64,000 nucleotides of DNA from Spinacia oleracea. Lineage: Eukaryota > Streptophyta > Magnoliopsida > Caryophyllales > Amaranthaceae. Below the pieces are notes generated by a model. It searched no databases and was not told the DNA's origin. It saw nothing but the letters and a program-made list of their open reading frames with translations. Made by a program: the position numbers and the translations under genes. Numbering within the stretch: position 1 is the first letter of the stretch; each line of letters begins with the position of its first letter. Below, piece by piece: positions 2,209-47,788 of the stretch. The DNA lies in the NCBI RefSeq assembly GCF_020520425.1, contig NC_079487.1, positions 108,596,141 through 108,660,140 on the forward strand, given 5' to 3'.

Positions 2209-2209
2209 T

Positions 2210-9371: not shown

Positions 9372-9511
9372 GTAAGCTTCACTTCATCCCTTTTTCTTAT
9401 TTTGATTTTCGTAATTTGTGCACAATTGTCAAATTAGAATCTGGATTTAATATTGATTGATTGGGTACAATATTCTGATACATAATTTGTATTGTATTGA
9501 AATATTTGCTT

Positions 9512-11042
9512 GAAAACATTCCTTAGGTTCTTTAGTTCAAAGTTTGGTTCGAAAACTTCATTTTTGCCTAAAAATGACCTAGAACGACCCAATTAGCCTT
9601 AAATGTGAAATAATAGATTATAAAGAGCCTTAGAAAGTTATAACTATGCATATGAGACGTGTAATAAGTTTGAAAACATTCCTTAGGTTCTTTAGTTCAA
9701 AGTTGGGTTCGAAAACATCATTTTTGCCTTAAAATGACCTAGAACGACCCAATTAGCCTTAAATGTGAAATAATAGATTGTAAAGAGCCTTAGAAAGTTA
9801 TAACTATGCATATGAGACGTGTAATAAGTTTGAAAACATTCCTTAGGTTCTTTAGTTCAAAGTTGGGTTCGAAAACTTCATTTTTACCTAAACATGACCT
9901 AGAACGACCCAATTAGCCTTAAATGTGAAATAATAGATTGTAAAGAGCCTTAGAAAGTGGTAAATATGCATATTAAAGGTGTAATAAGTTTGAAAACATT
10001 CCTTAGGTTCTTTAGTTCAAAGTTGGGTTCGAAAACTTCATTTTTGCCTAAAAATGACCTAGAACAACCCAATTAGCCTTAAATGTGAAATAATAGATTG
10101 TAAAGAGCCTTATAAAGTTGTAAATAAGCATATTAAACGTAGAATAAGTTTGAAAACATTCCTTAGGTTCTTTAGTTCAAAGTTGGGTTCGAAAACATCA
10201 TTTTTGCCTAAAAATGACCTAGAACGACCCAACTAGCCTTAAATGTGAAATAATAGATTGTAAAGAGCCTTAGAAAGTTATAAATATGCATATGAGACGT
10301 GTAATAAATTTGAAAACATTCCTTTGGTTCTTTGGTTCAAAGTTGGGTTCGAAAACATCATTTTTGCCTAAAAATGACCTAGAACGACCCAATTAGCCTT
10401 AAATGTGAAATAATAGATTGTAAAGAGCCTTAGAAAGTTGTAAATATGCATATTAAACGTGTAATAAGTTTGAAAACATTCCTTAGGTTCTTTAGTTCAA
10501 AGTTGGGTTCGAAAACTTCATTTTTGCCCAAATATGTCCTAGAACGACCCAATTAGCCTTAAATGTGAAATAATAGATTGTAAAGAGCCTTAGAAAGTTG
10601 TAAATAAGCATATTAAACGTAGAATAAGTTTGAAAACATTCCTTAGGTTCTTTAGTTCAAAGTTGGGTTCGAAAACTTCATTTTTGCCTAAAAATGACCT
10701 AGAACGACCCAATTAGCCTTAAATGTGAAATAATAGATTGTAAAGAGCCTTAGAAAGTTATAACTATGCATATGAGACGTGTAATAAGTTTGAAAACATT
10801 CCTTAGGTTCTTTGGTTCAAAGTTGGGTTCGAAAACATCATTTTTAAAAATGACCTAGAACGACCCAATTAGCCTTAAATGTGAAATAATAGATTGTAAA
10901 GAGCCTTAGAAAGTTATAACTATGCATATGAGACGTGTAATAAGTTTGAAAACATTCCTTAGGTTCATTAGTTCAAAGTTGGGTTCGAAAACATCATTTT
11001 TGCCTAAAAATGACCTAGAACGACTCAATTAGCCTTAAATGT
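9512..11042. repeat. 160-bp tandem array inside CACTA 2
   Basis: Nine full units and one partial unit begin with GAAAACATTCCTTAGGTTC near 9512, 9672, 9832, 9992, 10152, 10312, 10472, 10632, 10792 and 10948. The period is 160 bp except for one 156-bp unit that lacks four bases near 10845. Units differ by scattered substitutions. The last unit stops at AAATGTG (11042), just before a 14-base copy of the protease active-site codons. No coding sense is seen. Confidence 0.95.
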
Positions 11043-11171
11043 GGCTACTACGTATATAATTGCATTTACACGTGTAAACAAAATATATAATTGCACTTAC
11101 ATGTAAAATATTCTTTGCATTTACATGTGTAAACAAAGTATATATAATTGCATATTTTATCGAATGTGTAG

Positions 11172-11879: not shown

Positions 11880-12441
11880 ATTTTTTTTTTTAAAAAAATA
11901 AGTCATTTGCCACGCACGTTAGCTTAATGTGCGAGGCAAATGACTTAATTTTTTGGCGCTAAAATTGTCATTTGCGTCGCACATTAAGCAAATGTGCGTG
12001 GCAAAAGACTTTTTTTTTTGGCGCCTGAAAGTCATTTACGTCGCACATTAAGCTAATGTGCGTGGCAAATGACTTTTTTTTTGGCGCCTAAAAGTCATTT
12101 GCGTCACACATTTAGCTAATGTGCGTGACAAATGACTTTTCAACATGGTGCCTGAAAAGTCATTTGCCACGCACATTTGCTTATTGTGCGACGCAAATAA
12201 GGGTCATTTGCGTCGCACATTTAGCTAATGTGCGTGGCAAATGACTTTTCAACATGGTGCCTGAAAAGTCATTTGCCACGCACATTTGCTTATTGTGCGA
12301 CGCAAATAAGGGTCATTTGCGTCGCACAAATGTGCGACGTAAATGACTTTTAGTCATTTGCGTCGAGAGCTTTTGCCACGCACGATGTGCGACGCAAATG
12401 TGCTTAAAAGTGCGATGCAAATGACCCTTTTTCCACTAGTG
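11880..12441. repeat. CACTA 2 right subterminal palindromes and terminus
   Basis: About ten palindromic units of roughly 50-60 bases are built from AAGTCATTTGCGTCGCACAT and its complement ATGTGCGTGGCAAATGACTT. A 130-base segment (GCCTGAAAAGTCATTTGCCA... to CGCAAATAAGGGTC) is tandemly repeated around 12150 and 12258. The array ends at the terminal CACTAGTG (12434-12441). Confidence 0.85.
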
Positions 12442-17970: not shown

Positions 17971-17975
17971 GTAAT

Positions 17976-18400
17976 TGTTCCGGTGTTGTAAAGATGGAAA
18001 CAATGGGCTTCGAATGAAGGCCCTTTTGTATGTGTTGAAGATCTTGCTTGTTTGAATGAGTGGAGTCCGAATTCACCTGCACAAGAGCAAAGTTACTAGC
18101 CTCGGGGGTGTTTCCGAGGAAAGCCCCTCCGCTGCCTAAGTAAGAATGATGCTCGGATTCTAGAGAGAAGTTCTCTAGAAGAGTAGTCTTAAGGCGGTAA
18201 ATTGGACGTACCTTGAGGTGTGAGCCTTGGCGGCCTATTTATAGTGTTTGCATAATAAATGCCCATAGGTCATTTATTACTATTGGGCCTTGGGCCTTAA
18301 TGGATGGCTGAATAGCCACTGGTGGGTTCGATGTTGTTGTTTAGAGCCATTGGGCTTTGGACTTAGTGGCCCAATTGAGAGTCAATTGGGAGCCCAAACA
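17976..18400 (-). repeat. Gypsy 3' LTR (left copy)
   Basis: Starts TGTTCCGG and ends CCCAAACA on the plus strand, so the ends are TG...CA in either reading. The minus-strand copy adjoins the polypurine tract at 18401, which makes it the 3' LTR. It has a TATA box at 18236-18243. Confidence 0.95.
18236..18243 (-). promoter_or_regulatory. TATA box in gypsy 3' LTR
   Basis: TATTTATA on the plus strand gives TATAAATA on the minus strand. The same site in the 5' LTR is 29407-29414. Confidence 0.6.
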
Positions 18401-18417
18401 ACATGCCCCCCAGACCC
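18401..18417 (-). promoter_or_regulatory. Polypurine tract of the gypsy element
   Basis: On the minus strand the bases just before the 3' LTR read GGGTCTGGGGGGCATGT, a G-rich tract expected to prime plus-strand cDNA. Confidence 0.65.
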
Positions 18418-18579
18418 GGTCCATTTAGAATTAAATGGGTGGGTTTCCAGCTGTCAGAAGTCCGAAAGTTCCCTCTCTTTTTTGAAAAGGGATGATTTGC
18501 ATTGATGACAAGTGTTGGGAATTGTACTGTGTCATGGAGATCGTGGGTTTGAGGAAGTTGATGCGCCCTTTCTCTTTTC

Positions 18580-18587
18580 TATAAATA
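18580..18587 (+). promoter_or_regulatory. TATA box of the antisense gene
   Basis: TATAAATA in the context TTTTCTATAAATACTGGG lies 255 bases upstream of the ATG at 18842 and outside the LTR. It suggests that the antisense gene has its own internal promoter rather than relying on the LTR. Confidence 0.55.
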
Positions 18588-18841
18588 CTGGGTGCTTTGC
18601 TCCTTTTGAACTTTTTACTCCTTATTTCAAACCCATTCTCTCTCTAAATTCCGGCGATCGCAGTGTAATTTGCTTCTTCAGATCTACGAAATTCGGCCAA
18701 CTTTAGACTTCGGGAACTTGTGTTGTTCGCTTTATCGGCGAATTCCGCTTCGGAAAAAGGTAATTTGTTTCTGAGTTCTCCTTTTTTCTTCGTTCTTCCT
18801 TCTACCCCTCAATCTAAACCCTAGATCGAGATTTCGCGACC

Positions 18842-21800
18842 ATGGCAAAGAATAGGGGCAAAAGCAAGTTCGTTGTTGGCTCCTCGAGTGAGAGAGAGAA
18901 CGTGCCTTCGGGGAGGTTACCGAAATCTTCGAGGGGTCGACCTTCGGAGAGGCCGTTGGAGAAGAGTGCGATTGGTTGGGATGCTTCCGAAGATGAACGC
19001 GCAACCTCTGGTGAGAGAGCTGGCTTTTCGGGTGCTCGTCGTCGTTACTCCGAGTTTCCAGTTCATTGGACGGAAGCTGATCCGAAGGGCAAGTATGCCT
19101 CAATTTTGCATGAGACCACGCAGATCGACGGTCCGTTGGAGAAATCGGTCAGCGGTGACTGGTTGGTGGAAGCGAAGTTAGGGAATTATCATCGGAAGGC
19201 CGAGGAGCTATACGGAATTCAGCATGCCTTGGGGTACTGGTGCGAGCTTCCTGAGCAAGAGCGTCCTCGGGTGACTCATCCACCGAGGGGGTTCATTTCC
19301 GTGTATACTCACCATTTGGAGAATGGTCTCCGCTTTCCTCTGGATCCGTTCGTATCCGAGCTTTTGGTGTCGTACAACATTAGTTTGGCCCAGCTCACAC
19401 CCAAATCTATGAGGCACATAATCGGATTTAGATGGGTGTGTGACTTCGTCAATTTCCCCTGCTCTGTCGCTGTTTTTCGGGATCTTCACGATCTGGTTCT
19501 CAACCATGCTTCCAAGGGTGATGGGTATGGTTGGTGGACCATTGTCAACAAGAAGTCCCGAAAGAGGGGGGATCCGAACTACATCACGGCGTACCCCTAC
19601 CTTAGCTCTGACCACAATTGGAAAACGGAGTGGTTGCTCGTCCGTGTGCCGACGGATCCGAAGCATCCCAACTTTTATCGTCCTCCGAAGTGGTTCGTGG
19701 CTCCTAATCCTGATATGAGGGGTGTGGCAGCTCCAGATCGGAACCATCGTCACTATGTGGACCTCCTCCAGTGGTTCTTGGCTCAAGAGGATAACCATCG
19801 ACTGCCGTCTAGCTGGCTTCCGAATCTCAATTACATTTTGAGGGAGGACATTCTTGCTGTTGCCGGTCTCAGCAGGATCTTTGACAGGGGTAGGTGTCTT
19901 TCGGCTGAGACCGTTTTTCAGTGAGTTTGTCCTCTTTCCTGCTTCGTTTTGCTGACATGTTTTGTGCTTTGTTTTTGCAGAGTACGGCTTTAGCCGCATT
20001 GATCCTAAGAAGTTGGGCATTTCTTTGGATTTGAAGACTATTTACGACCCGGCTCCCGAGTACAAGTTCGGAAAAGATAACCCTCGTAATCCTTGTCTGA
20101 AGGATTACGTGTTGTCTCCTTCGGGGGTTGCTCGGATATCCGAAGTTCGAGCTGATCCGTGGGATTCCGCCTCCTCTGTTGAAGCTGTTCCTGTGAAGGT
20201 TGTGCTTCCTGAGTTGAAGACAACTTCGGACCCGGTGAGTGTTCATTTATAGGCTCGATTTTCTGTTTGTCTTTTTCTTTTCGGTTGGCCGTCGGCTAAC
20301 GTCTTGGTCCTGGACCATCTTTTTAGGGTCCTGGGACTGACGCTGTGCCGCGTGCCGTTCCTTCGGTTTCATCTCCGGCTCGGATAGATATCTCTTTATC
20401 TAGGAACCGGGTATTTCCCGCTTTTTTCTCTATTTCTTCCTTTTTCTTCTTTTATATTCGTTGACCCTTGGTCTCCCCTTTTTAGGATCAACGCAAAAGG
20501 AAGGGTAGCACTCTTTTGAGGCCTTCCACGCATCCGAAGAAAGCGAAGGCTTCTCAGCCCTCGGAGAAGGTATTTGTTCTGACTTGGAGTTTTTGTAGTT
20601 CGTTTCTCCCTTTTTCTGAAACTAATCTTTGAACGCTTGCTATGTAGGAAGCGGTTTCGGAAGTTATGCCTCCTCCTAAGAATCTTCTTCACTTCATGCC
20701 CTTGCCGGGGCAGAAGTTAAAGAGTGTGGTGGTTGCTGAACCGCCGCCCGTGGATCAGCCGCTGATCGAGGAAGATATCATCCCCTCTCCCCTAAAACCA
20801 TCTGCTGCTTCGGGGATCGAAATCCAGGATATCACCGAGGTGATGGAGGCGATTGAAGCCGATTTTGTTCCTGGTTTGGTTGTCCCTGAGGTAGCTGAGG
20901 AGAAGGAGTCTGCTGATCTTCCCTTCGAGAGAGAGAAGAGTCCAGACAAGGAGATGATAGATCTCTCGGGCCCCGAAGCTGCGGTCCCCGAGGTTCAGAA
21001 GGAGGTTCCCTCTGCTGGAGAGGAGGAGCAGCCCGAGCAAGGTTTGACGAGGAAGAGGCGCCACTCAACTTTGGGCTCTACTTCTACCTCGGCCCTGGAT
21101 AGGCTGATCCATGCTGATCCCTGTTCGGATGTTCCGCTAAAACGGATCCCTGAAGAAGTAAGGGAGGCGATGGCTCGATATGCTAGGGCTCCGATTTTGG
21201 GAGAGGACCCCTTGGCCCACGTGGGATCCTTGGTGGGCCCCGAGGCTGCTCGGGAGAATCTGCTTCGTGCTAACCCGCAGTGGAGGGTTCCTGGGGCCGA
21301 AGAGAGGAATCCGGCTATGATGGCCCAGTACTATCTGAACGAGGTAATTTGCTAGATTTTTCTCTTTGAGTTGTGTTTTTGTTTTATGTTTTTCCTATTT
21401 TGCTCATCTTTCTCTCGTTCCCAGGCTGTTTTCTGGTCTTCGTTCGCTTCCGAGTGTAGCTCGGTTGAGGAGAAACAACTGAGGAAATATCGTGAGGCTT
21501 ATGCTCGTGATATTCCCATTTTGGACCAGAAGGCTGGGCAACTCCTCTCCGAGCTTACGGAACTCAAGCAGCTGTACCTTCATTATAGTCGCGAGGCTAG
21601 AGAGTCTGCTGAGAAGATCGGGACCGAGGTTGGCCAGCTCATCTTCCGAGTTGAAGAGGATGCTGAGAAGATCGCTTCCTTTGCTGAGGAAAAGAAGGAT
21701 ATGGCCGCTAAGTTCGCTAGCGAACTTGAGGAAAAAGATAGACTCTTCCAGGAGATGAAGTCTAAATTTGAAGCGGCCGACAAGGAGCATAAAGAGGCGG

Positions 21801-22225
21801 AGTTAAGGCTCCACCATTTTGTCCAGCATCGGGAGCTGATCCAGCAGCAAGCTGATAAGGTGCCTGTCCTTCGGCTGAAGCTTCGGGAAAAGGATGACTA
21901 TATTCGGAAGCTGGAGCAGGAGCGAGTCAACCTCTACACTGCTGATCAGTGTAGAGAGCAGTACTGGAACGGCATCCTGGGTGCTCGGCGCATGTTTGCG
22001 AAGCACATGCCTCACTTCCCTTGGAACGAGAAAGTTCCCCTATGGATGCAGGCCGAGGACCACTTGGTGGAATGCCAAGCTGATCGAGATGAAGCTGAAG
22101 CTGAACGCCAAGCTGCTCTTGCAGAGGCTCGGGCCCAGAAGGCCACTTCCGAGGGTGATACTACTGCTGGGGGTTCTTCGAAGGATGCTCCCCTGGGGGC
22201 CGCTCCTGAGACTCCTAAGAGTTAG
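18842..22225 (+). CDS. Antisense additional ORF of the gypsy element, PF04195-like protein (six exons)
   Basis: Exons 18842-19889, 19981-20234, 20327-20410, 20486-20569, 20648-21343 and 21425-22225 join in frame with GT-AG introns, giving 988 codons plus stop. The ATG has an ideal plant context (CGACCATGGC). Exon 1 holds a domain with GLRFPLDPFVSELLVSYNIS and L-(T)PKSMRHIIGF, the pattern of the Pfam family 'putative gypsy type transposon' (PF04195). Exons 3-5 are charged and Pro/Glu-rich, with basic KRKGS and KKAK clusters that could be nuclear signals. Exon 6 is a long coiled coil rich in E, K, A (about residues 735-930). Function is unknown. It converges with pol. The intact frame and clean introns suggest constraint or youth. 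Confidence 0.8.
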
Positions 22226-22452
22226 GGACTCGGGCAGTCGTCTTCTTCAGAGTCGGTCGGTTCCAGTTGAGGACTTCCGAATATGTGCTTGCTTTTCCCC
22301 CTTTTGCCTCGGCGCTGCGTTGTACTCGTTTCTTTTTGCTTTCTTAGTACTTCGGTAGGCCGGTATTGTCTGTTGATGGCTGCCGATTTTAACTGTTTCA
22401 TTTTGTTTTCAATTTTTGAGGTTTTCAATATTTGTACTTCCCCCAAATATTG

Positions 22453-22458
22453 AATAAA
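22453..22458 (+). terminator. Polyadenylation signal of the antisense gene
   Basis: AATAAA in CCAAATATTGAATAAAAAATG, 228 bases after the stop codon and just before the 46-bp array. Confidence 0.45.
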
Positions 22459-22499
22459 AAATGAATGTTTGTTACTTGGCTGCTTCTTTTCAACTTGTT

Positions 22500-22935
22500 C
22501 TTTCGCAATTTTAGGTCTTTAAATCCGTAGATTTCTCGAGCTCCTCTTTCTGTAGACTTGCTAAAAACCTTTTGATCTTGCGAGCTCTTTAAATCCGTAG
22601 ATCGGTTAAGAGACTTTTTAACTTTTGCGAGTTCTTCAAATCCGTAGATCTGCTAAGAGACTCTTTGACTTTGTGAGTTCTTCAAATCCGTAGATCTGCT
22701 AAGAGACTCTTTAGTTTTGCGAGTTCTTCAAATCCGTAGATCTGCTAAGAGACTCTTTAGTTTTGCGAGTTCTTCAAATCCGTAGATCTGCTAAGAGACT
22801 CTTTAGTTTTGCGAGTTCTTCAAATCCGTAGATCTGCTAAGAGACTCTTTAGTTTTGCGAGTTCTTCAAATCCGTAGATCTGCTAAGAGACTCTTTAGTT
22901 TCCAGACTCTTCAAATCCGTCGATCTGCTCAGAGG
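22500..22935. repeat. 46-bp tandem array between the antisense gene and pol
   Basis: The unit GAGTTCTTCAAATCCGTAGA-TCTGCTAAGAGACTCTTTAGTTTTGC repeats at exact 46-base steps (AAATCCGTAG at 22638, 22684, 22730, 22776, 22822, 22868, then 22913), with two more diverged copies to the left (22521, 22591). The central copies are identical or nearly so. It lies in the shared 3' region of two convergent transcription units. Confidence 0.95.
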
Positions 22936-23322
22936 TTTGGATTGTTCTTCCGATCTCTTGTGGTTCGGAAACCTGGGCAAGAGATCGCTAGTCTGCCTCT
23001 TTAGTTATGCCTTCGGCGATCCGTGGATCTGAGCCGGAGTTTTATAACTTGATTCGAGCGACTGTTTGTTGCGAACAAATTTTATTAGGGTACCGCGAAT
23101 CCGAGGATTCTGGACGATTCCCTGAAGTGTATGATTTGGTCATTTCTTGCATTTTATCAAGGAATGGGCAAAGTCAACCTGTTTTTAGTCTCGGATTGAT
23201 CAGATCCGAGGCTGCATATATATATAAAGGGACAATAATTATAGAGATAAGTTTAATGAAACACATGGTGCCAATGGCTTTCCTCTTCTCATTAAACAAC
23301 TTACTTGGTTTACAGACAGAGA
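22936..23322. other. Spacer after pol (minus strand 3' region)
   Basis: Non-coding DNA between the array and the polyprotein stop at 23323. It repeats the element's typical TCCGAGG/ATCCG word usage. No separate gene is supported. Confidence 0.5.
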
Positions 23323-26300
23323 TCATACAAAATATTTCTTGAGAACATCGGTATTCCAATGGTTCTTCAGAATTGTTCCATCTAACTGTTTCAGCATATA
23401 CGTGCCTGGCCTTTTTTCGGAATGGATGATGTATGGTCCTTCCCAAGTGGCTGAGAGTTTGCCATGGATCCGTCCTTTCTGAACCGAGGCGGCGTTTCTG
23501 AGTACTAGATCACCGACTTTTAGGGGTCTGGCGTTGACTCTTCGGTTGTAATGCTTGTTGACCCTCTGCAAATAGGCTGCGTTGAGTGTCCTTGCATCGT
23601 TCCGAGCTTCGTCCAGTAGATCGAGAGCTTCGGATAGAAGTTGATTGTTGCTTTCTCCTTGGAGCCCATCATACCTGTTGTATGCCTGAATCCTCAGGCT
23701 TTCTGTTCCGATTTCCACAGGAATTACAGCTTCGGATCCGTATACAAGGTGGAACGGTGTTTGCCCGGTAGCTTCTTTCTCAGTGGTCCGAAGGGACCAT
23801 AGCGTTCCGGGTAGCTCTTCTAACCATTTGTTTTTGTCATCTTCGACTCTTTTCTTGAGTGCATTGAGGATGAGTTTGTTAGCAGCTTCGGCTTGCCCGT
23901 TGCTTTGTGGGTGACAGACTGCCGAGTACGCTAGGTGTATGCCGAACTGTTTGCACCACTTTTGCAACGGGGTGTTGTCGAACTGTTTCCCGTGGTCGAA
24001 GACCATCAGTCTTGGTATGCCGAACCTTGTGATGATGTTCTGCCATATGAACTTGCGGACCTGAGGTTCGGTGATGGAGGAGACAGCTTCGGCTTCGATC
24101 CATTTGCTAAAATAGTCGACTCCTACAATCAACCACTTCTTCTGGTTCGTCGCTGAGGGGAAAGGACCAATGATGTCTAACCCCCACTGTGCGAATGGTA
24201 ATGGATACAGCGTTGATTGTAGGGTTTGAGCTGGTTGATGGATGGCTGGTGCGAACTTTTGGCATTTCTCGCATTTCCTTGCCATCTGCTTTGCCTCGGA
24301 AACCATAGTGGGCCACCAGTACCCAGCCCGAAGGGCTTTATGTGCTAATGTCCTACCTCCAATGTGGTTTCCGCATATCCCGAGGTGGATTTCCCTTAGG
24401 ATGTAGTCAGCGTCTGTTGGACCCACACATTTTAGCAGCGGAGCAGAGAATGATTTCCTCATGAGCTCTCCTTCGGCGCTGATGATGAACCATCTGTTGA
24501 ATCTTTTCAGTTTTCTCGCTTGCAGCTTATCTTCGGGAAGTTCTCCCCTTTCTTTGTATGCAACTACTGCGTCCATCCAGCTAGGTTCGGTACGTAAGCT
24601 GCATACTGTGGTGGGTAGCAAGTCGATGCTTCTCTCTTGGTGAACTTCCACGTGGACCGACCTGTTTAGGTCGATGAGTGTTGAGCTTGCGAGTTTTGAC
24701 AGTGCGTCTGCTTGCGTGTTCTGTCCTCGGGGAATGAGGATGACTTCAAAGGATCTTAACTTTGACGTTAAGGATTTAATTTTTGCTAAATAGGCTGTCA
24801 TGCTGGGCCATTTGGCCTCATACTCCCCTCGGATCTGGTTGGCTACAAGCTGGGAATCAGTTTTGAGGCGAACATGTTCGGCCTCCAGGGATAAACAAAG
24901 CTCTATCCCTGCGATTGCGGCCTCGTATTCGGCCTCGTTGTTGGTTGCTTTGAAGCCGAACTTCAATGCATACTCTATGCTTTTCCCCGTCGGGGGGATC
25001 AGTACAACTCCTGCCCCTGAGCCGTTTATTGTGGAAGATCCGTCAGTGAAGACCTCCCAAGTGCTTTTCGTATCATCCAACATTTCCTGGTATGAGCACT
25101 CGGCCAAGAAGTCTGCCAATGCTTGTGCTTTGATTGCTGTCCTCGGCTGATATTTGATGCCGAACTCTGATAGTTCGAAGGCCCAGGCAGCCAATCTTCC
25201 TGACCTCTCTATTTTGTCGAGTACTTTTTCGAGCGGTTGGTCAGTTAGCACTGTGATCTGGTGGGAGTCGAAGTATGGCCTCAGTTTTCGTGCAGCTACC
25301 ACTACTGCATATGCGACTTTCTCGATGAGTGGGTACCGGGTTTCGGCCCCTGTGAGTGTTCGGCTGGTGAAGTAGATTGGCTGTTGCTTCTTTTCTTCTT
25401 CCCGAAGAAGCACTGCGCTGACGGTTCCAGGGCTAACTGCGACATATAGGTACAGGGTTTCCCCCTCCTTTGGTCTGGCCAGTGTCGGCAGTTGAGCTAG
25501 GTGGGCTCTGAGTTGCTGAAAAGCTTCTTTTTGCTCCTGTTCCCATATCAGTTCGGGATCCACTTTCCTCGGGACCCCTTTTTTCTTGACTGGTTCTGCT
25601 TCTCCTCCGGGGAGGTTCTTTGGTTTCAGTGCTTTGAAGAAGGGGGCTCCCTTATCCGAGGCTTTTGATATGAACCTTGTTAGTGCGGCTAACCTGCCGG
25701 TTAGCCTCTGCACATCTCTCTTGGTCTTCGGCTCGGGTAAATCCAATGCCGCTTGGACTTTGTCCGGGTTCGCATCAATTCCTCTTTCGCTCACCATGAA
25801 TCCGAGGAATTTACCTGACTTCACCCCGAAGACGCATTTTTTTGGGTTCAGCTTCATGCTGTGCTTCCTCAGGTTTCCGAAGGTCTCTGCCAAGTCTTTG
25901 ACGTGGTCTTCCTCCTTGATGCTTTTTACGATGGAGTCATCCACATAGACCTCCACATTCCTCCCTTTCTGGTCGGCGAAGACGTGATCAACTAGTCTCT
26001 GGTAGGTGGCTCCGGCATTTTTCAAGCCGAAAGGCATCATTTTGTAGTTGAACACTCCTGCGCTTGTGATGAACGCTGTCTTTGCCCTGTCATCGGGGTG
26101 CATGAATACTTGGTGGTAGCCTGAAAAGGCATCCATGAAGCTGAGCAGTGCATGGCCGCTGGTGGAGTCAACCAATTGATCTATCCTTGGCAGGGGATAG
26201 CAGTCTTTGGGGCAGGCTCGGTTCAGGTCTGTGAAATCCACGCACATTCGCCAGGAGCCATTCGCTTTTTTGACCATCACCACGTTGGCCAGCCATTTCG

Positions 26301-29076
26301 GATACATGCATGGCTCAATGAATCCGGCCTCCTGCAACTTTTTCACCTCCTCGGCGATGGCTTTGTTTTTCTCCGAGGAGTAGTTCCTCTTTTTTTGCTT
26401 GACTGGCCGAGCTTCAGCGTTGACGTCCAGCTTGTGACAAATCAGCTTCGGATTTATCCCTGGCATATCTGCTGCTGACCATGCAAAGATGTCTTTATGA
26501 TCCCTGAGTAATCGGATCAAATCGATTCGGAGCCCCGAGCTTAGGCCCTTGCCTATTCGGACGCTCCTGTCTGAATCCTCTTCGAGGAAGATATCCTCCA
26601 TTTCTTGATCTGGTTCGGGAGATAGGGTTTCGGGGCGGGCATCAACTTCTGCGGGAGACAAGCTGCTCGTGCTTGCTCTTCTCCTTTTTGCCTCGCTTTC
26701 CTCTCCCTTAGCTCCTTTTTCTTCCTCGGGGCCGTCCTCTAGTTTGGGCTTTCGGACAGCAGTGTGGCAGGTTCTTCTCGCCACTTCTTGATCACCTCTG
26801 ATTCGTTCGGCGAATCCTGCATCCGAGACGTATATCATCAGCTGGTGGTATGTGGAGGGGACTGCTTGCATCTTGTGAATCATGGTTCTCCCCATGATTA
26901 CGTTGTATACGGAGTCGCAGTCCATCACCAAAAATTCGTCCCGAAGGGTTTTTGCTGCCTGGCCTTCGCCCACTGTGACTGGCAGGGTGATCTTTCCTCG
27001 AGGGATAGCTGCGGATCCGTTGAATCCGATCAGAGGATAACTGACTTTCGTCAGTGCTTCCTCTGGCTCTTCGAGGATCAGCTGCTCGAAGCAGTTTCTG
27101 AAGATGATATTGACGGCACTTCCTCCGTCGACTAACACTCGATGTACGTTATGGTTGTTGAGGTCCATGGAAATGACCAGAGGATCGTCATGTTTGTACT
27201 GGACTCCGAAGCAATCATCAGCAGTGAAGGTCATGTTCGGGGGGTGTGGTTGGTTGTCTCCAACCGCGCTGAAGTTGACCCGATGGGAGAGGGCTCTTAG
27301 GTGTTTCTTGCTGGCCTGGCCAGACTTCTGCCCCCCGAACACCACCAGGATGTCGTTTTTCTTATGTCCTGTTGTTTCGTAGACCCTCTTCTGGGGTTGC
27401 TCATGCTGTTTGCCACTGGCGGCCTTTTCTTTTTCCTCCCTTCGGTCTAACAAGTACTGTTTCAGGTAGCCTCGGCGAACGAGGTCCTCAATGTTGTCTT
27501 TCAGCGAGTTGCACTCTTCGGTGTGGTGACCGAAGTCATCATGGAACTCGCACCACTTGTTCTTGTTTCTCCGAGCTGGGTTGGACTTGAGCTTCCCCGG
27601 TAGTTTCCACTTTTCGTCATTTCTGTTGAGGCTAAATATCTCTTTTCGGGGCAGAGCTAGTGGAGTGTAGTTGGTGTATTTGGGTTGAAGTTCACCCCTT
27701 CTCCCGTCTTTCTTCGGGCTCATCTCTCTAGCTCCTACTTTCTCTTTCCCCTTCCTTGAGCCGCCCTCGGGCTTGCTCTGGGTATTCTTTGTGTCTCTCG
27801 GATCTGACGATCCCTTCAATCTTGCAGCGGCCTTGTTGAACTCTTCGGTTCTGATGAACGCATCAGCCATTTGGAGCACGTCAGCTATTCTGGAGGGGTT
27901 CTTCATTGAGAGTTCGTCACGGAACTTCCCTTCCTGGAGCGCGTGCTTCAAGGCGAAGATGGCCACGTCTGGCTGCAAGTTTGGTATGTTTGTTGATTCC
28001 TTCATGAATCTGGCCATGAATTCTCTCAGACTTTCGTCTCTTTCTTGTTGGATTGAGGTCAGTTCTGCTGTGGTTCGCTCGGGGCGATTGTTGCTCACGA
28101 ACTGTGTGCAGAATCTCTTTTTCAGCTTTTTCCAGCTCTTGATCGATCCCTTCGGCAGCGATCTAAACCACTCTCCCGCCACTCCGGTTAGCGTGGTTGG
28201 GAAGTATTTACACCAACATGCTTCGGAGTAGGGACTCAAGAACATTTGCTGCTCGTAGGAGATGACATGATCCCTCGGATCTGTGATTCCGCTGTAGGTT
28301 AGGTGCGCTGGCAGTCTTACCTTCGGTATTTCTTCCATGATCAGCTCGTCCGAGAAAGGGGATGACGTAGGAGTCATGATTCTTTTCCCGAGTCTAGCCC
28401 TGATGCCTTCGTTTGCCGAGGTTCTGTGATTAGAACGCTCGGGCGTACGATGGGGGCTAGGGGTTCGATCATGCCTCCTGTCTCTTCTTCTTTCTCGGCT
28501 ACTGACCTCGGGTCGTTCGCCAGACCTGCTCGACTCACCTACCCCGAGTCTCGTATGGATCGAAGGTCTTAACCTTGAGTGGACCGAGGGCCTCAACCTG
28601 CTGAGCACCGAGCTTCGGATCCGAGTGTTACGAGTAGTTGATTCGCTTTGGAGAGCTGTTGGAGTAGGCGATGGTCTCGCAAACCAATCTGGTTGCTGTT
28701 GTGCCCTTTTTTGGGTGTCCCACGTGCTTTCCATCCACCTCGACGTCAAGTGTGTACCTGTCAAGGGAAGGAGTTCTCGTTCGGGTCTGGACACTTCCGC
28801 ACTGGGTGGCTCGTTCAGCCTTCGCCTGGTCCTCCTCTCTTCTCTGCGGTCATTTGCCAGTCCTTGCTGCTTCTCATTGAAGAGGAAGTTTTGCATGATG
28901 GTCATGGCCGCAGTGAGCTCTTCCCTAGTTGGAATCGGAGGTCCTGCATTCGTGGCGGTCGTAGCTCTGCTTGGCTGTGACCTCGCCATCGATTGAGGGT
29001 GCCCCTCTTGGTCAGATTCTGAATCTGACCGCACCATCATATCGTCGTTATTGTTGTTAACAGCATCATTCACCAT
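23323..29076 (-). CDS. Gypsy gag-pol polyprotein (Gag, PR, RT, RNase H, IN)
   Basis: One open frame without stops. Reading from the upstream-most in-frame codon at 29253 it is 1976 residues, and positions below use that count. I chose the ATG at 29076 (residue 60, MVNDAVNNNND) because everything before it translates LTR and primer-site sequence. Gag core is near 330-430, with a zinc-binding CEFHDDFGHHTEEC near 570. Protease DGGSAVNIIF is near 707. RT has MPFGLKNAGATYQR and YVDD near 1100. RNase H has FTDGSS near 1405 and NNEAEYEAA. Integrase has an HHCC zinc site (CEKCQK near 1664) and core Asp, Asp, Glu (GLDIIGPF, MVFDHGKQFD, NGQAEAAN). FDHG replaces the usual TDNG, but the Asp is kept. All catalytic residues are present. 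Encoded on the strand opposite to the antisense gene. Confidence 0.95.
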   Translation of the reverse strand: MVNDAVNNNNDDMMVRSDSESDQEGHPQSMARSQPSRATTATNAGPPIPTREELTAAMTIMQNFLFNEKQQGLANDRREERRTRRRLNEPPSAEVSRPERELLPLTGTHLTSRWMESTWDTQKRAQQQPDWFARPSPTPTALQSESTTRNTRIRSSVLSRLRPSVHSRLRPSIHTRLGVGESSRSGERPEVSSRERRRDRRHDRTPSPHRTPERSNHRTSANEGIRARLGKRIMTPTSSPFSDELIMEEIPKVRLPAHLTYSGITDPRDHVISYEQQMFLSPYSEACWCKYFPTTLTGVAGEWFRSLPKGSIKSWKKLKKRFCTQFVSNNRPERTTAELTSIQQERDESLREFMARFMKESTNIPNLQPDVAIFALKHALQEGKFRDELSMKNPSRIADVLQMADAFIRTEEFNKAAARLKGSSDPRDTKNTQSKPEGGSRKGKEKVGAREMSPKKDGRRGELQPKYTNYTPLALPRKEIFSLNRNDEKWKLPGKLKSNPARRNKNKWCEFHDDFGHHTEECNSLKDNIEDLVRRGYLKQYLLDRREEKEKAASGKQHEQPQKRVYETTGHKKNDILVVFGGQKSGQASKKHLRALSHRVNFSAVGDNQPHPPNMTFTADDCFGVQYKHDDPLVISMDLNNHNVHRVLVDGGSAVNIIFRNCFEQLILEEPEEALTKVSYPLIGFNGSAAIPRGKITLPVTVGEGQAAKTLRDEFLVMDCDSVYNVIMGRTMIHKMQAVPSTYHQLMIYVSDAGFAERIRGDQEVARRTCHTAVRKPKLEDGPEEEKGAKGEESEAKRRRASTSSLSPAEVDARPETLSPEPDQEMEDIFLEEDSDRSVRIGKGLSSGLRIDLIRLLRDHKDIFAWSAADMPGINPKLICHKLDVNAEARPVKQKKRNYSSEKNKAIAEEVKKLQEAGFIEPCMYPKWLANVVMVKKANGSWRMCVDFTDLNRACPKDCYPLPRIDQLVDSTSGHALLSFMDAFSGYHQVFMHPDDRAKTAFITSAGVFNYKMMPFGLKNAGATYQRLVDHVFADQKGRNVEVYVDDSIVKSIKEEDHVKDLAETFGNLRKHSMKLNPKKCVFGVKSGKFLGFMVSERGIDANPDKVQAALDLPEPKTKRDVQRLTGRLAALTRFISKASDKGAPFFKALKPKNLPGGEAEPVKKKGVPRKVDPELIWEQEQKEAFQQLRAHLAQLPTLARPKEGETLYLYVAVSPGTVSAVLLREEEKKQQPIYFTSRTLTGAETRYPLIEKVAYAVVVAARKLRPYFDSHQITVLTDQPLEKVLDKIERSGRLAAWAFELSEFGIKYQPRTAIKAQALADFLAECSYQEMLDDTKSTWEVFTDGSSTINGSGAGVVLIPPTGKSIEYALKFGFKATNNEAEYEAAIAGIELCLSLEAEHVRLKTDSQLVANQIRGEYEAKWPSMTAYLAKIKSLTSKLRSFEVILIPRGQNTQADALSKLASSTLIDLNRSVHVEVHQERSIDLLPTTVCSLRTEPSWMDAVVAYKERGELPEDKLQARKLKRFNRWFIISAEGELMRKSFSAPLLKCVGPTDADYILREIHLGICGNHIGGRTLAHKALRAGYWWPTMVSEAKQMARKCEKCQKFAPAIHQPAQTLQSTLYPLPFAQWGLDIIGPFPSATNQKKWLIVGVDYFSKWIEAEAVSSITEPQVRKFIWQNIITRFGIPRLMVFDHGKQFDNTPLQKWCKQFGIHLAYSAVCHPQSNGQAEAANKLILNALKKRVEDDKNKWLEELPGTLWSLRTTEKEATGQTPFHLVYGSEAVIPVEIGTESLRIQAYNRYDGLQGESNNQLLSEALDLLDEARNDARTLNAAYLQRVNKHYNRRVNARPLKVGDLVLRNAASVQKGRIHGKLSATWEGPYIIHSEKRPGTYMLKQLDGTILKNHWNTDVLKKYFV

Positions 29077-29126
29077 TTTCGCGGAAAGAGGTGATTGATG
29101 TCTTTCAAAGGCTTTGAAGTGTTCTT

Positions 29127-29143
29127 CCCCACAGACGGCGCCA
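29127..29143 (-). promoter_or_regulatory. Primer binding site of the gypsy element
   Basis: On the minus strand the 5' LTR ends GGAACA and is followed after four bases by TGGCGCCGTCTGTGGGG. PBS sequences beginning TGGCGCCGT are usual in plant Ty3/gypsy elements and complement the 3' end of a tRNA. The exact tRNA is not decided here. Confidence 0.75.
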
Positions 29144-29146
29144 AAT

Positions 29147-29571
29147 TGTTCCGGTGTTGTAAAGATGGAAACAATGGGCTTCGAATGAAGGCCCTTTTGT
29201 ATGTGTTGAAGATCTTGCTTGTTTGAATGAGTGGAGTCCGAATTCACCTGCACAAGAGCAAAGTTACTAGCCTCGGGGGTGTTTCCGAGGAAAGCCCCTC
29301 CGATGCCTAAGTAAGAATGATGCTCGGATTCTAGAGAGAAGTTCTCTAGAAGAGTAGTCTTAAGGCGGTAAATTGGACGTACCTTGAGGTGTGAGCCTTG
29401 GCGGCCTATTTATAGTGTTTGCATAATAAATGCCCATAGGTCATTTATTACTATTGGGCCTTGGGCCTTAATGGATGGCTGAATAGCCACTGGTGGGTTC
29501 GATGTTGTTGTTTAGAGCCATTGGGCTTTGGACTTAGTGGCCCAATTGAGAGTCAATTGGGAGCCCAAACA
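29147..29571 (-). repeat. Gypsy 5' LTR (right copy)
   Basis: Same 425 bp as the left copy apart from one base. Read on the minus strand it starts TGTTTGGGCT and runs into the PBS. The TATA box is at 29407-29414 and transcription should begin some 30 bases further down. The polyprotein frame stays open back to 29253 inside this LTR. Confidence 0.95.
29407..29414 (-). promoter_or_regulatory. TATA box of the gypsy 5' LTR
   Basis: TATAAATA on the minus strand (context CACTATAAATAGGCC). This is the likely core promoter for the genomic RNA. Confidence 0.65.
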
Positions 29572-29576
29572 GTAAT

Positions 29577-31033: not shown

Positions 31034-31276
31034 TATTAAACTTTATCCATGATCGGCACTAAACAATCATAAAAAATAATAATGAAATCGACTAAAAAGA
31101 TATTGTATTAAAAAATAATAATAATAAACAACTAAATTGAAATTATAATAAGCAATTGAATGAAGGGGTAAAATGGGAACAAAAGTTACGCAAAATGTTG
31201 TAACTCCTTCGAATTTTTATATAGGTAATGATATAGGTCGAATAACTAAACAAACATCAATTATTCAGGCCGGTTT
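31034..31276. other. Short AT-rich stretch left of the truncated copia LTR
   Basis: It has no match to the first 200 bases of the 3' LTR at 37139, so the 5' LTR of copia 3 is truncated or replaced here. Confidence 0.4.
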
Positions 31277-31454
31277 TGAGATCATTTTTTTGTTTTGTCG
31301 GGTTTTTGATCTTCTCTTTGGATTCCTCTTTTATGATAGCCTTTTAAGTATGATTTATGGACAATTATCATTCTAATTATGGTGATTAAGTTGGACCATT
31401 ATTTCTGTTGATTATGGGGGTTATAAACCCTTCATTATTATGGGGTTTAATTAG

Positions 31455-32096
31455 TTTTTTTTTGCTAGGCAAGTGTAGTATATATATTAACAACAAGAGT
31501 AACAACCGATCATGGGAACAACCTCCCACTGATCAAACACAAAGTGACCAGAAAGCCACACAGCTACCCCTCATACAAGTTAAAGAACCAACTGTAGTCA
31601 CCAGGGTTAACATTCCTAGGGAGAACATTGCTAATTCTATTATGTACACAAAATTTTATGCTTTTACACACTTTATCAGGTAATCTGACCTGACCACTCC
31701 AGAGGCATTGTTCCTCTCACACCAAATATGGTAAACTGTACAGAGGATGCTAGAGTACATCACACTTTTCTTGAATCTGGAATACTTCTTCCTATGAACC
31801 CACTGCAGCATGGAAGCAAGATTAGAATGAACTGTACTGATGCCTATCCATGAAGCAATGTGAGACCAACATTGCTTACTGTAAACACACCTGAAAAATA
31901 GATGTTTGTGGCTCTCCACCTTAGTACCACAAATGAGGCACCAATTATCAGGAGTGACACCAATTCTCATCAATTTCTCTTTGGTGTTCAGTCTCTCTAA
32001 CATGGCTAACCATGTAATGAATCTATGTTTAGGCACACTCAGCCTACCCCAAACTGCATTACACCATTGCAGTTTATCAGAACCAGTTTGCATTAG
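31455..32096 (-). mobile_element. 5'-truncated LINE inserted in the copia 3 LTR
   Basis: The insert begins on the plus strand with nine T's (a poly(A) tail on the minus strand) and is flanked by ATTAG on both sides (31450-31454 and 32092-32096). On the minus strand it encodes a reverse-transcriptase zinc-binding domain. Poly(A), 5' truncation and a short duplication are typical of target-primed LINE insertion. Confidence 0.8.
31656..32091 (-). pseudogene. LINE ORF2 C-terminal zf-RVT domain fragment
   Basis: About 145 residues are open, with WGRLSVPKHRFITWLAMLER, a C-x2-C (CLICG) and the following H-x3-H/F-x-C (ESHKHLFFRC), the pattern of the plant zf-RVT family (PF13966) that follows LINE reverse transcriptase. 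The polymerase itself is missing because of 5' truncation. Confidence 0.8.
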
Positions 32097-32484
32097 TTGT
32101 TCAATGTCATTGGATTCCTTTGAGTCCTTTGATTTCTTTGGGTTGTTTTGTATCCTCCTCTAATCCTATAAATACATGCTTCATTTCTTGAGTTGCTTAC
32201 AGAAAAATTATTCCCTTATCATCTCATTTTCTTCCTCTCTTTTGGGTATAAGTTCTAGTAACTCCATCTCACACCCAAGAGTGTCATTGTGTGTTGAGAG
32301 TCGTGTAAACCTTAGGGAATTAACGAATCGCTGAATACAATTGTGCACTGCAGTTGCACCGGGTCTTGTTTTTAAGGCAGTAGTTTGGTTACCACGACAC
32401 AACAAGTTTCGTGATCTTACTTTCTTATTTTTCATTTTAGCCTTGAAAACACTTAAAATACAACAATTTGATAACGAGGTATTA

Positions 32485-35400
32485 TGTCTATTGTTATGGC
32501 TAACTCTATAATGAGCAAGACCCTTCCCGGCCTCTCTAAGTTGGAGAATCTTGATGGCAAGAACTACAAGAGATGGTCAAAAAAATTATTGATCTTTTTT
32601 TAGCAACTTGAAATAGATTATGTGCTATATGAGGATGTGATTGAAGCAATTGAAGCAAGCAAGGCGGTAGCACCGGATCCCTCCCTTTTGGCGGAAGATG
32701 TCAAGAAGGCGGTTGAAGCATTGACCAAGAAGGAGAAAGACAACAAACTTGTCAGGGCTCACATTCTCCATCATGTGAATGGGATATTGTTTGACCTCCT
32801 CATCACCAATCGGTCAAGCAAGTCCATTTGGGACACCTTTCAAAAGAAATATGGAGTCGATGATGCCGGTAAGAAAAAGTATGTTGTTGTTAAGTGGATC
32901 AATTTCAAGATGACGGATGACAAGTGCGTCATGGATCAAGTCCATGATTATGAGAACATTGTCACCGACATCTTAGGTGAAGGTATGAAGATGTGTGAAA
33001 CTCTTCAATCCAATGTAATCTTGGAGAAATTTCCACCATCATGGAATGACTACCGCAATTCTTTGAAGCACAAGAAGAAGGACATGAACCTTCAAGAACT
33101 CATTGGTCATATGAGGACCGAAGAGGCTAACCGCCTCAAGGATAAGTTTGAATCTATTTCTTTGAATTCCTCTAAAGCTAACTTGGTTGAATCTAGTGCT
33201 CCTATGGCTAAAAACAGGTTCAAAGGGAAGAAGAAAAATCATTCAACCAAAGAAAACTTTACCAACAACAACAAGATTCAAAAGACCAAATGAACTTGCT
33301 ATGTGTGTGGAAAGATAGGACACAAAGCCTATCAATGTGACCACTGCCACAAGAGCAAATCCAGTGGTGCCTCCCAAGCCAACCTTGTTGAAAAGAATGA
33401 GGTGATAGCCGCGGTGGTGGTTGAAGCCAACTTGGTGGAGAACAAGGTGGAGTGGATCTTGGATACGAGAGCATCAAGACACTTTTGTGATAACAAGGCT
33501 ATCATGACGGGTATTGAGGATGGTACCGATGGAGACTATGTTTATATAAGAAATAGTAGCACCGCCATAGTTCTTGGAAAAGGGAAAGTCCATCTTAAAC
33601 CCACTTTCGGAAAAAATTTATTTTTGAATAATGTCTTGTATGTTCCTTCCCTTACTTGTTCCGGGTGCCCTTCTCAACAAAGTCGGCCTAAAACTTATCT
33701 TTGAGGCGTACAAGATTGTTATCTTTAAGAATGGAGATTTTGTTGGGAAAGGCTAACTTAGTGAAGGCTTGTTTGTGTTGAATATTTTGAAGAATAATGA
33801 AAGTATTTCTTCTTTTGCTTGCATCGTTGAGTCTATGGATGTTTAGCACAATCGATTAGGACATTTAAATGTTTCTTACATAAAAAAGTTAAAAGACATG
33901 AACTTAATTTCTTTTGATAAAATTGACAAAGCCTCTAAATGTCCTATTTGTGTTGAGGCCAAACATACTAAGAAACCATTTAAGAAAATGACAACGAGAA
34001 GTACTAAATTGTTAGAGTGATTCACTCGGATATAGCGAACTTTGAAAATTGCACTACTAGTAGAGGTGGGAAAAATTACTACATAACCTTTGTTGATGAT
34101 TTTTCGAGATTTACTAAAGTTTATCTTTTGAAAACTCAGGATGAGGTTTATCTTTTGAAAACTAAGGATGAGGCCGAAAGTACATTTTTAAAGTATAAAG
34201 CCGAGGTTGAAAATCAACTTTACCTTAAAATTAAAAAAGTTAGAACCGATAGAGGTGGTGAATATGGAAAATGGTCTTTAAAAGAATTTTGTGAAACCAA
34301 TGGAATTATCCATGAGCTAAGTTCTCCCTACACCCCCACAAAAAAATGGTATTGCCGAAAGGAAAAACAAATCTTTAAAAGAGACTATGAATGCCATGCT
34401 TCTAAGTTCCGGATTATCCAACAACATATGGGGGGAGGCGGTTTAATCCCATTGTTATGTACTCAATAGAGTGCCCCATAAGAAGTTGGATAAGACACCC
34501 TATAAGCTTTGGAAGGGTTATATATAAATCTAACATGAGTATTTTAAAAGTGTGAGGGTGCTTAGCCAAGGTTGCTTTTCCAGATTTTAAGAAAACCACC
34601 ATTGGATCTAAAACTTTTGATTGTGTGTTCATTGGTTATGCTCATAATAGTGCCGCATATAGATTCATACTTTTGAGTGATCATTCTATTTGTGAATATA
34701 CGGATGCAGTTTTCTTTGAGAATACTTTCCCTTTGAAATCGTTTTTGTCTTCTCATGTGCATGAATCAAGTGTTGATGTGCCTTTAGATGTTTCTTTGCC
34801 TAGTCCTAGTGTTCCTCCTCCTCCCACTATAGTGGAAGAAGTCCAACCTAGGAAGAGTAAGAGGCTTAGAGTAGAGACTACATTTGGACCGGATTTCTTG
34901 ACCATTTTTCTTGTTGAAGACTTTGATGTGGATTATTTGAGTAAAATTGTTGTTTCTTTGTTTCTCTTAGAATAATAGCCAAAGACTTATAGTGAAGCTA
35001 TGAAATACATAGATGTTAGTTTTTGGAAAGAGTTCATTCAAAGTGAATTAGATTCAATCATGTCTAATCATACTTGGGACTTGCGTGATTTGTCTAAAGG
35101 GTCTAAACCCATAAGTTGTAAATGGATCTTTACTAAGAAGAAGAAAACCGATGGCTCTATTGATAAGTTTAAGGCTGGCTAGACTTGTTATTAGAGGTTT
35201 CACTCAAAAAGAGGGAATTGACTTTTTTTGATACCTACTCACCGTGACTAAGATTGTCACCATTAGAACATTGGTTGCTTTAGCGACAATACATGACTTA
35301 GTGGTTCATCAAATAGATGTTAAAACATCCTTTCTTAATGGTGATCTTGATGATTAAATTTATATGACTCAACCGGAAGGGTTTGTGGTTAAGGGTCAAG

Positions 35401-36532
35401 AGCATAAGGTGTGTAGACATAAAAAGTCTTTCTATGGTTTGAAACAAGCTCCTAAGCAATGGTATGAAAAGTTTGATAGTACCCTTAGAAGTGATGAATT
35501 TGTGACTAATTCTTAGGACTCTTGTGTGTATTCTAAAGTGTTTTATTCCTCTTGTGTTATTATTTGTCTCTATGTTGATGACATGCTTATTGTGGCCACT
35601 AACCTTGAGGTTGCGAATTACACTAAAGATTTTCTGTCTACTAAGTTTGAAATGAAGGACTTAGATGAAGCCGATGTGATCCTTGGTATCCGGTTGACCA
35701 AGTCCAAGGATGGGTTCTCAATGAGTCAAATTCATTATGTAAAGAAAATCTTGAAGAAGTTCAATTGCTATGATTTGGAGCCATCTAAGACTCCTTATGA
35801 TGCAAGTGTAAAGCTTACAAAGAATAAGGGTCCAAGCGTGTCTCAAGAGAAATATGGCAAGGTAATAGGAAGTATGATATTTTTGATGAATTGCACACGT
35901 CCCGACATTGCCTATGCGGTAAGTAGATTAAGTCAATATACTCATAATCCTAGTAGTGATTATTGAAATGCACTTCATCTTTTTCTTAGGTACCTAAGGG
36001 GTACCATGGAGGTATGTTTGCATTTTAATCGCTTTCCTAATATTTTGGAAGGTTATTGTGATACTAATTGGGTGTCCTCTAATGATGAAGTTGTTTCTAC
36101 TAGTGGCTATGTGTTTATGTTGGATGGAGGTGCTATTTCATGGAAGTCCGCAAAACAACCATGTCTAGCTCGCTCCACCATGATATCTGAATTCATTGCT
36201 CTTGAGTTGGAAGGTCAAGAAGCGGATTGGTTAAGAAGTCTCCTAGCCGATATCCCATTGTGAGGGGGGGGGGGGAGAGAACTTTCCCGGTATCCTTGCA
36301 TTGTGACTCTCAAGCGGGGATTGGTGTGGCTAATAATATAAACTATAATGGTAAGAAGAGACACATACGCCTTAGACATAGTTCGGTGAGGCAACTACTC
36401 AAAAATGGAGTGATTGCATTGGACTATGTAAGGTCCGAAAGAAATTTGGCGGATCCTTTGACTAAGGGGTTGGGAAGGAACCAAGCTGATCTTGGCTCGT
36501 CGAAGGGGATGGGGATTAAACCCATGAAGTGA
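32485..36532 (+). pseudogene. Copia 3 gag-pol remnant
   Basis: Gag starts at ATG 32485, has a stop at 32601-32603 and then 223 clean codons to a TGA (33292-33294) directly before the zinc knuckle CYVCGKIGHKAYQC. The protease motif reads DTRAS instead of DTGAS, losing the invariant Gly. Integrase, RT (YVDDM near 35571) and RNase H (ending SSKGMGIKPMK) are recognisable but split among several frames, for example 34017, 34625, 35526, 36006 and 36227. A run of 12 G's (36264-36275) shifts the frame in RNase H. No product can be made. Confidence 0.85.
36264..36275. repeat. Poly-G run (12) in the copia 3 RNase H region
   Basis: Corresponds to CCATTGTGGGGGAAACC in intact copia 2 (51471-51487), so the short G run has expanded and broken the frame. 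Confidence 0.85.
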
Positions 36533-37138
36533 ATAAGATAAGCATCACTAACATTCCATCCCTATGACAATTTGTGTTTGTAATGCTTGTTGTAGGTTGA
36601 ATTCGTTCGAATTCTTAATGGATTTATACTTACATAGTAGGTCCTCTAGCTAAGCATTTGAGAATCCACCGTTGTATTTTATGTGGAGATTGAGTTTGTT
36701 TAAACTCTTAATGAATCCAAAGAGATGTTTTGTGCTATTGAGAATCACAAGGGATTCACCTACGTGGTTGTGAAAACTCGCCATCTTCTATGAAAATTTG
36801 GCGATTTCCTAGATCTTCTATGAGAACTAAGGTAAACGCATGGCTTAAAACGCGTTCACTTTGCGGAGTTTATTAGATCTTTGGGATGATGTATGTATTG
36901 GGGGGGGGGGGGGGGCTTGACTTAAATCTTAGAGTTTCAAGGTTAGTCCACTCTTTGATCAAACGTTTAAGGGTTTCAAGATTAGTCCACCCTTGTACTT
37001 GTAAGTCATTGTTCCACTTCACTAAGCATTTGGTTTCAATTTACTTAAATGTAACACCGAATGTTATGTATTGATCTCCTCTTATACCCAAAATTTTTCT
37101 CTTTCATTTGGTATCTTTTCTCATGTTTAGTTGGGGAT
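36533..37138 (+). other. Copia 3 spacer between pol and 3' LTR
   Basis: Non-coding. It includes a run of 16 G's (36900-36915), followed by a short duplication (GGTTAGTCCAC and GATTAGTCCACC), and ends with a PPT-like TTAGTTGGGGAT (to 37138). Confidence 0.6.
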
Positions 37139-37886
37139 TGTTGGAATTGAAAAATGGAAAAGTGCGCCGAAAACCTACCGGATTTTCCAAAACCGGCAGG
37201 TTTCCAGCGCAAGTGGAAAATCGAAATTAAAAGGCCTTTCTTGAAGTGCACCAAAAATCGACCGATTTCGGAAAACCTGCAGGCTTTGAGAACTGTGGTT
37301 TATGAAGGTTTTTAATTTTGGTTGAACTCGGAACCGACCGATTTTGAGATCATTTCTTTGTTTTGTCCGATTTTTTATTTTCTCTTTAGATTCCTCTTTT
37401 TTGATAGCCTTTTAAGTATGATTTATGGACAATTATCATTCTGATTATGGTGATTAAGTTGGTCCATTATTTCTCTTGATTATGGAGGTTATAAACCCTT
37501 CATTATCATGGGTTTAATGGGTTGTTCAATGTCATTGGATTCCTTTGAGTCCTTTGATTTCTTTGGGATGTTTTGTATTCTCCTCTAATCCTATAAATAC
37601 ATGCTTCATTTATTGAGTTGTTTACAGAAAAATTATTCCCTTATCATCTCATTTTCTTCCTCTCTTTTGGGCATAAGTTCTACTAAATCTATCTCACACC
37701 CAAGAGTGTCATTGTGTGTTGAGAGTTGTGTAAACCTTAGGAACGAATCGGTGAATACAATTGTGGACCCCGGTTGCACCGAATCTCGTTTTCAAGGCAG
37801 TGGTTTGGTTACCAAGGTACAACAAGTTCCGTGAATCTTACTTTCTTGTTCTTTATTTTAGCCTTAAAAACACTTAAAATACAACA
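37139..37886 (+). repeat. Copia 3 3' LTR (748 bp)
   Basis: Starts TGTTGGAATTG after the polypurine tract and ends TACAACA. A TATA box lies at 37592-37599. It differs from the 5' LTR by many substitutions and small indels, in line with great age. Confidence 0.85.
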
Positions 37887-47766: not shown

Positions 47767-47788
47767 TCTTCCGTGTTTTATTTTTACA

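Follow-up and report, generated by a model that had tools for sequence, protein, structure and literature searches.

Can a retrotransposon maintain a spliced protein-coding gene on the strand opposite its own polyprotein, and if so, how do the introns of such a gene survive copying through RNA? The question is raised by an element in the 64,000-nucleotide stretch of spinach (Spinacia oleracea) DNA analysed here, which we call the window. An initial annotation, made from the letters of this stretch, described a young gypsy element that codes on both strands. We find the element at 17976-29571 on the minus strand with the following parts:

17976-18400, minus strand: 3′ LTR, 425 bp, a single mismatch against the other LTR, with the TSD GTAAT at 17971-17975
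22571-22934, no strand assigned: tandem array of a 46-bp unit, 7.9 copies, between the convergent gag-pol and antisense gene
23323-29076, minus strand: gag-pol polyprotein, counted from the in-frame ATG at 29076 that comes first beyond the 5′ LTR, the open frame itself reaching 29409
29147-29571, minus strand: 5′ LTR, 425 bp, with the TSD GTAAT at 29572-29576

The sole LTR mismatch is at 18132, a PBS sequence is recognised, the internal region measures 10,746 bp and the distance from pol to the 3′ LTR is 4,922 bp. At the rate adopted from the initial annotation (1.3e-8 per site per year), one change in 425 corresponds to an insertion age of about 0.09 My, with a wide error because a single change underlies the estimate. 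The annotation's one-base LTR difference, exact TSD and age on the order of 0.1 million years are thus borne out, and its view that the element is recent gains support from four near copies, whose LTRs differ at 0, 1, 0 and 0 positions. The LTRs of the more distant copies L061 and L062 differ by one base and by two bases plus a gap, respectively; L059 and L060 gave neither an LTR age nor an RT count, the RT piece being unmatched in L063/L064 and the 5′ LTR in L067/L068. This is a large and partly recent family, and the element could be active. Its G+C content is about 0.45-0.52, compared with about 0.32-0.39 in the surrounding few kilobases, and no RNA family reaches its gathering score in the window.

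The polyprotein had been described as fully open with all catalytic residues. A single frame does run from 29409 to 23323 with zero internal stops and, searched in pieces, it matches the Pfam gag, RT, RNase H, second RNase H (RVT_3) and integrase families above their cut-offs; the protease domain falls below its cut-off (E 0.14). In one piece RT_RNaseH (182-280) is followed by RVT_3 (319-434), and the integrase lies in the next piece. Inspection by eye for the motifs that we take to be catalytic located YVDD in the RT, all four acids in the second RNase H and D-D-E in the integrase; the first RNase H lacks its first acid, so that the claim stands with this one exception. Decay of the first RNase H has been described in the Tat clade (PMC6317226, available text), and the same text gives as the mark of its Ogre/Retand branch a second RNase H (aRH) that follows the first and precedes the integrase, which is the arrangement seen here.

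The opposite strand holds the antisense gene. Its parts are:

18580-18586, plus strand: TATA box, outside the LTR, motif CTATAAATA
18842-19889, plus strand: exon 1, with the start codon and a conserved domain at about residues 145-349 that includes PF04195
19890-19980, plus strand: intron 1, phase 1, at the same position in four families
19981-20234, plus strand: exon 2 of the spliced gene model
20327-20410, plus strand: exon 3 of the spliced gene model
20486-20569, plus strand: exon 4, with the basic clusters RKRK and KKAK (NLS-like)
20648-21343, plus strand: exon 5, an acidic linker with RKRR
21425-22225, plus strand: exon 6, long helices, coiled-coil-like, with the stop codon
22453-22458, plus strand: AATAAA polyadenylation signal (sequence motif)

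At base level the annotated model proved correct: six exons and five GT-AG introns of 75-92 bp (417 bp in total; phases 1,0,0,0,0) join into 988 codons plus a stop, with the start context GACCATGG, and the TATA box outside the LTR and the gene's own AATAAA are where they had been placed. CTATAAATA is present in all 32 of the rows L027-L058 (31 places) and lies 258-261 bp upstream of the start in 28 of them; in L034 the distance is 1233 bp, and in three of these rows the start pattern has no exact match. The PF04195-like domain of the annotation is a profile match to PF04195 (Transposase_28) at residues 154-216, scoring 42.8 bits against a cut-off of 26.2, and its long coiled coil agrees with exon 6 modelled alone, for which helices of 142, 48, 4 and 40 residues are predicted (mean pLDDT 74.7). 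A fold of exon 1 predicted from the single sequence reached a pLDDT of 36.9 and was discarded. An antisense TRP28 (PF04195) ORF between pol and the 3′ LTR and a TSD that is usually 5 bp long are expected of Retand, and both features are found here. The element is a recent LTR retrotransposon of the Tat/Retand kind. Modelled as intronless, the gene would be reduced to exon 1, 349 of its 988 residues, and the joined protein would be overlooked.

To follow the gene through the genome we searched 894,210,420 bases in 242 contigs, of which C1-C6 (115-189 Mb each) make up about 879 Mb. The exon-1 protein retrieved 3209 first-look candidates; the best 116 were scored, at 95-100% identity, and 112 of these are stop-free in exon 1, a sample of the highest-scoring candidates that favours good copies. 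With up to three mismatches allowed, the boundary of exon 1 and intron 1 occurs unspliced at 450 places genome-wide, whereas the joined exon 1-exon 2 pattern occurs at 0 places, a zero that is not absolute because very common words were skipped. Because unspliced places are so many and spliced ones were not met, the copies of this family appear to have been made from RNA in which intron 1 was still present, which is what gag-pol-sense RNA should yield.

In the scheme that we propose, the accessory gene, convergent with gag-pol, would be transcribed by Pol II from its own promoter and its mRNA spliced at five introns. The introns would survive retrotransposition because new copies come from gag-pol-sense RNA, in which they would run backwards and could not be removed. 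Placing a gene on the uncopied strand may be a way for a retrotransposon to retain introns.

The introns are well preserved among the copies. Thirty-six fetched rows were aligned to the window, 24 spanning the whole gene and 12 ending before exon 6; all ten splice dinucleotides are kept in 23 of the 24 full-length rows, and the nine that are visible are kept in all 12 partial ones. In L044 the match breaks abruptly at the place equivalent to 20326, the end of intron 2, as an insertion or a breakpoint would produce, and this row was excluded from the codon counts. Also uncounted were L009, which is the window itself, and L010, L011, L013-L026 and L036, which are shorter fetches of places already counted. 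The whole spliced frame is intact, each copy's own insertions included, in 14 of the 23 other full-length copies; six have one stop each and three a frameshifting deletion. Retention of the ORF by other copies, on which the annotation had let its proposal of a selected protein depend, is thus observed.

An open frame in a young element might reflect youth alone, the gene being a long-acquired passenger that is now decaying, and the stop or frameshift in nine of the 23 copies is what such a gene would show. The comparison between subfamilies makes this reading very improbable. Transitions outnumber transversions by 77 to 20 among noncoding differences, and the Nei-Gojobori count overstates selection when transitions dominate; for this reason we also used a neutral N/S expectation of 2.18 that includes the noncoding bias. 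Between the window and L060, L061 and L062, N:S is 25:57, 40:83 and 46:98 with 0 stops, giving omega of 0.20, 0.22 and 0.21, with binomial p values from 2e-12 to 3e-19, at dS of 0.09-0.17. For the same pairs the Nei-Gojobori dN/dS is 0.14-0.16, and it is 0.16-0.19 for L056-L059 (N:S 15:27 in L056, 18:30 plus one stop in L057, 18:27 in L058 and 22:49 plus one stop in L059) and 0.15-0.21 for the partial subfamily rows L027-L035, L037 and L038. Among near copies it is higher (0.17-0.45; L012 0.34). When the joined sequence is read in its five wrong frames, each frame has 6-21 changes that involve a stop in the comparisons with L060-L062; the true frame has 0. Judged by these codon changes, the joined six-exon frame is under purifying selection between subfamilies with omega about 0.2, and the dN/dS near 1 that would have spoken against the proposed protein is not what we see. 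A 1.2-kb piece of RT is more constrained still (omega 0.09 in L061 and 0.01 in L062).

How the changes are shared leads to the same view. Across the window and 23 copies, shared changes comprise 30 N, 83 S and 0 stops, where about 8.5 stops are expected under neutrality, and private changes comprise 68 N, 85 S and 6 stops. The private N/S of 0.80, also below 2.18, mixes decay after insertion with changes in subfamilies that were sampled once. Every stop is confined to a single sampled copy, from which it would seem that no element lineage can do without a working gene of its own, and we propose that the antisense protein would benefit its own element. Lineage-shared indels measure 27 and 3 bp in exons; introns have five, of which four are single-base and one is 3 bp long. 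In raw terms exons diverge less than introns in L060 (2.9 versus 5.8%), L061 (4.9 versus 6.3%) and L062 (5.4 versus 7.5%), and more in L059 (2.8 versus 2.2%) and L056-L058 (1.4-1.7 versus 0.2-1.0%); intron divergence is below the Nei-Gojobori synonymous distance, and the introns are not clearly faster than the exons.

It is also conceivable that the antisense transcript acts rather than a protein, pairing with the genomic RNA and setting silencing through dsRNA. Given its position, the transcript would show complementarity to the genomic RNA in the 3′ part of the latter, and the possibility is raised in the available text of PMC7264820. We nevertheless regard it as improbable as the main function, since codon-level selection, shared exon indels in multiples of three and a conserved splice phase all indicate a protein, though both could coexist.

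The other PF04195 loci of the genome fall, by eye, into three families (L001-L008, L083 and L084; L079-L081 and L086; L082 and L085) that share 23-29% identity with the antisense protein. The alignment of nine exon-1 proteins spans about 200 residues, compared with the 69 positions of the Pfam profile, and the invariant residues include P137, G162, R164, P187, W325 and G342-L343. PF04195 is the sole Pfam family found in all nine; three others appear in one or two members at E 0.04-0.26. Six residues past the Gly-Leu pair, all ten members read for this feature have a phase-1 intron with a GT donor and an AG acceptor, as the window gene does (L002, L006, L007, L008, L083, L081 and L085 by script; L079, L080 and L082 by eye). 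The alignment thus indicates that one phase-1 intron occupies the same residue in four Transposase_28 families of this genome, a statement about the genes that does not assume the other three families to lie inside Retand elements. L002, L007 and L008, of a single family, further have a phase-0 intron directly before a coiled-coil-like exon, resembling intron 5 of the window gene.

A search for solved relatives returned 0 PDB chains at E <= 5, and of the 26 pattern matches in viral contigs and the 3 in bacterial and archaeal genomes none was confirmed as a relative. Ogre elements with the plant mobile domain (PF10536), and MAIN/MAIL1, are also comparable: this is the extra domain in many Ogre elements, and there too an extra gene belongs to a Tat-clade element (PMC6317226, available text). 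A shared origin of this domain and TRP28 was considered and rejected: hhalign gave probabilities of 0.13 and 0.09%, from shallow profiles (7 and 8 plant-mobile-domain sequences, Neff about 2.5-3) that leave a remote tie possible, and PF10536 is absent from the matches of all 9 members at E <= 5. The plant mobile domain itself has copies in the same genome, with 126 matches; several are in two parts (profile 2-197 and 239-346), for instance at C2:63844308-63846694, about 1.4 kb apart, and an intron may separate them.

What the protein does can be approached through its architecture and its published relatives. Its basic clusters RKRK, KKAK and RKRR resemble nuclear signals, and the protein of Grande gene 23, which is transcribed from its own promoter, is nuclear (PMC7264820, available text); PF04195 has been predicted to bind DNA (PMC11963269, available text). 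The protein would accordingly enter the nucleus and self-associate by its coiled coil, and the PF04195-containing domain would bind element DNA or chromatin and so regulate expression, silencing or integration. Taken together, we lean, by a modest degree, towards the view that this spliced accessory gene encodes a self-associating nuclear protein which aids its element, probably through regulation at the level of DNA. The same nuclear-signal-like clusters, long helices and selection on the protein would suit a structural or trafficking accessory, comparable to some retroviral accessory proteins, that assists nuclear entry of the pre-integration complex or its choice of target instead of regulating expression. 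Such a role has been proposed (PMC7264820, available text) and we consider it possible, if doubtful; the gene has its own promoter-like signals, separate from the gag-pol frame, which fits such a role less well. We weakly favour regulation of the element over trafficking.

One form of regulation has an analogue elsewhere. The VANDAL elements of Arabidopsis are a different element class. By analogy only, their VANC is an element-encoded anti-silencing protein whose targets are often tandem repeats (PMC5735166, available text), and an antisense protein of this kind would bind the tandem array of its own element and remove silencing marks. The array at 22571-22934 adjoins the gene, and arrays occur in about half of the Retand elements in print (PMC11963269, available text). 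The other half lacks an array, and motifs of the array recur only weakly in the rest of the element (8 near-matches, compared with 0-4 across five shuffles), so that we hold this version to be rather unlikely. A broader scenario is also rather unlikely: an ancient intron-bearing Retand accessory gene, spared intron loss as only the opposite strand is copied, might encode an element-specific anti-silencing chromatin factor, in which case the shared intron would predate the split of the families.

We compared the locus with the available text of five papers (PMC11963269, PMC7264820, PMC6317226, PMC5418596 and PMC5735166). Antisense ORFs in Tat-lineage elements, which the annotation had called known, are in print for Retand, where antisense TRP28 ORFs occur in 97% of the recent clusters surveyed (PMC11963269). 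Table 1 of that paper lists a cluster, ‘Spinacia oleracea 1’, of 54 copies with an LTR of 425 bp, equal to that here, an average internal region of 10,719 bp (10,746 here), a pol-3′ LTR distance of 4,850 bp (4,922 here) and, as here, gag, protease, RNase H, integrase, an antisense TRP28 domain and one tandem array. By this printed description alone, the window element agrees with the cluster in size, domain set (its protease being below cut-off) and single array, and the family has very probably been catalogued already under that name. Grande gene 23 of maize, RIRE2 and ORF4 of the Silene Retand are described as antisense genes between pol and the 3′ LTR, as here, and the Silene ORF4 likewise has PF04195 (PMC7264820).

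The kind of element is therefore already in print. The available text of PMC11963269 relies on ORF Finder and does not use the word intron, and that of PMC7264820 calls for study of antisense and spliced transcripts. In our literature search we met no description of conserved introns in this antisense gene; the older studies of Steinbauerova 2011, Kejnovsky 2006 and Gomez-Orte 2013 lay outside its scope, and we claim no priority. The novelty is modest: we add a spliced gene model, a test for selection on it and an intron conserved between families. Experiments thereby gain a defined protein, from a model that is spliced and under selection and whose conserved domain is roughly three times as long as PF04195.

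Several further features were recorded in the window. A second young LTR element, of copia type, lies on the plus strand from 47095 to about 52900, with gag in 47714-48544 and pol in 48545-51739, both open; its repeats are identical (47095-47650 and a copy 5223 bp downstream). Remains of copia elements include RVT_2 at 2207-4141, a copia gag at 32604-33293 and repeats at 31270-37741. An AT-rich segment at 38117-40568 contains a twice-repeated unit of about 1163 bp, with pieces 98-100% identical. A tandem array at 9510-11043 has 9.6 copies of a 160-bp unit, with 94% matches, and the tandem units at 11897-12328 each have a palindrome-like core around AATGTGCG.
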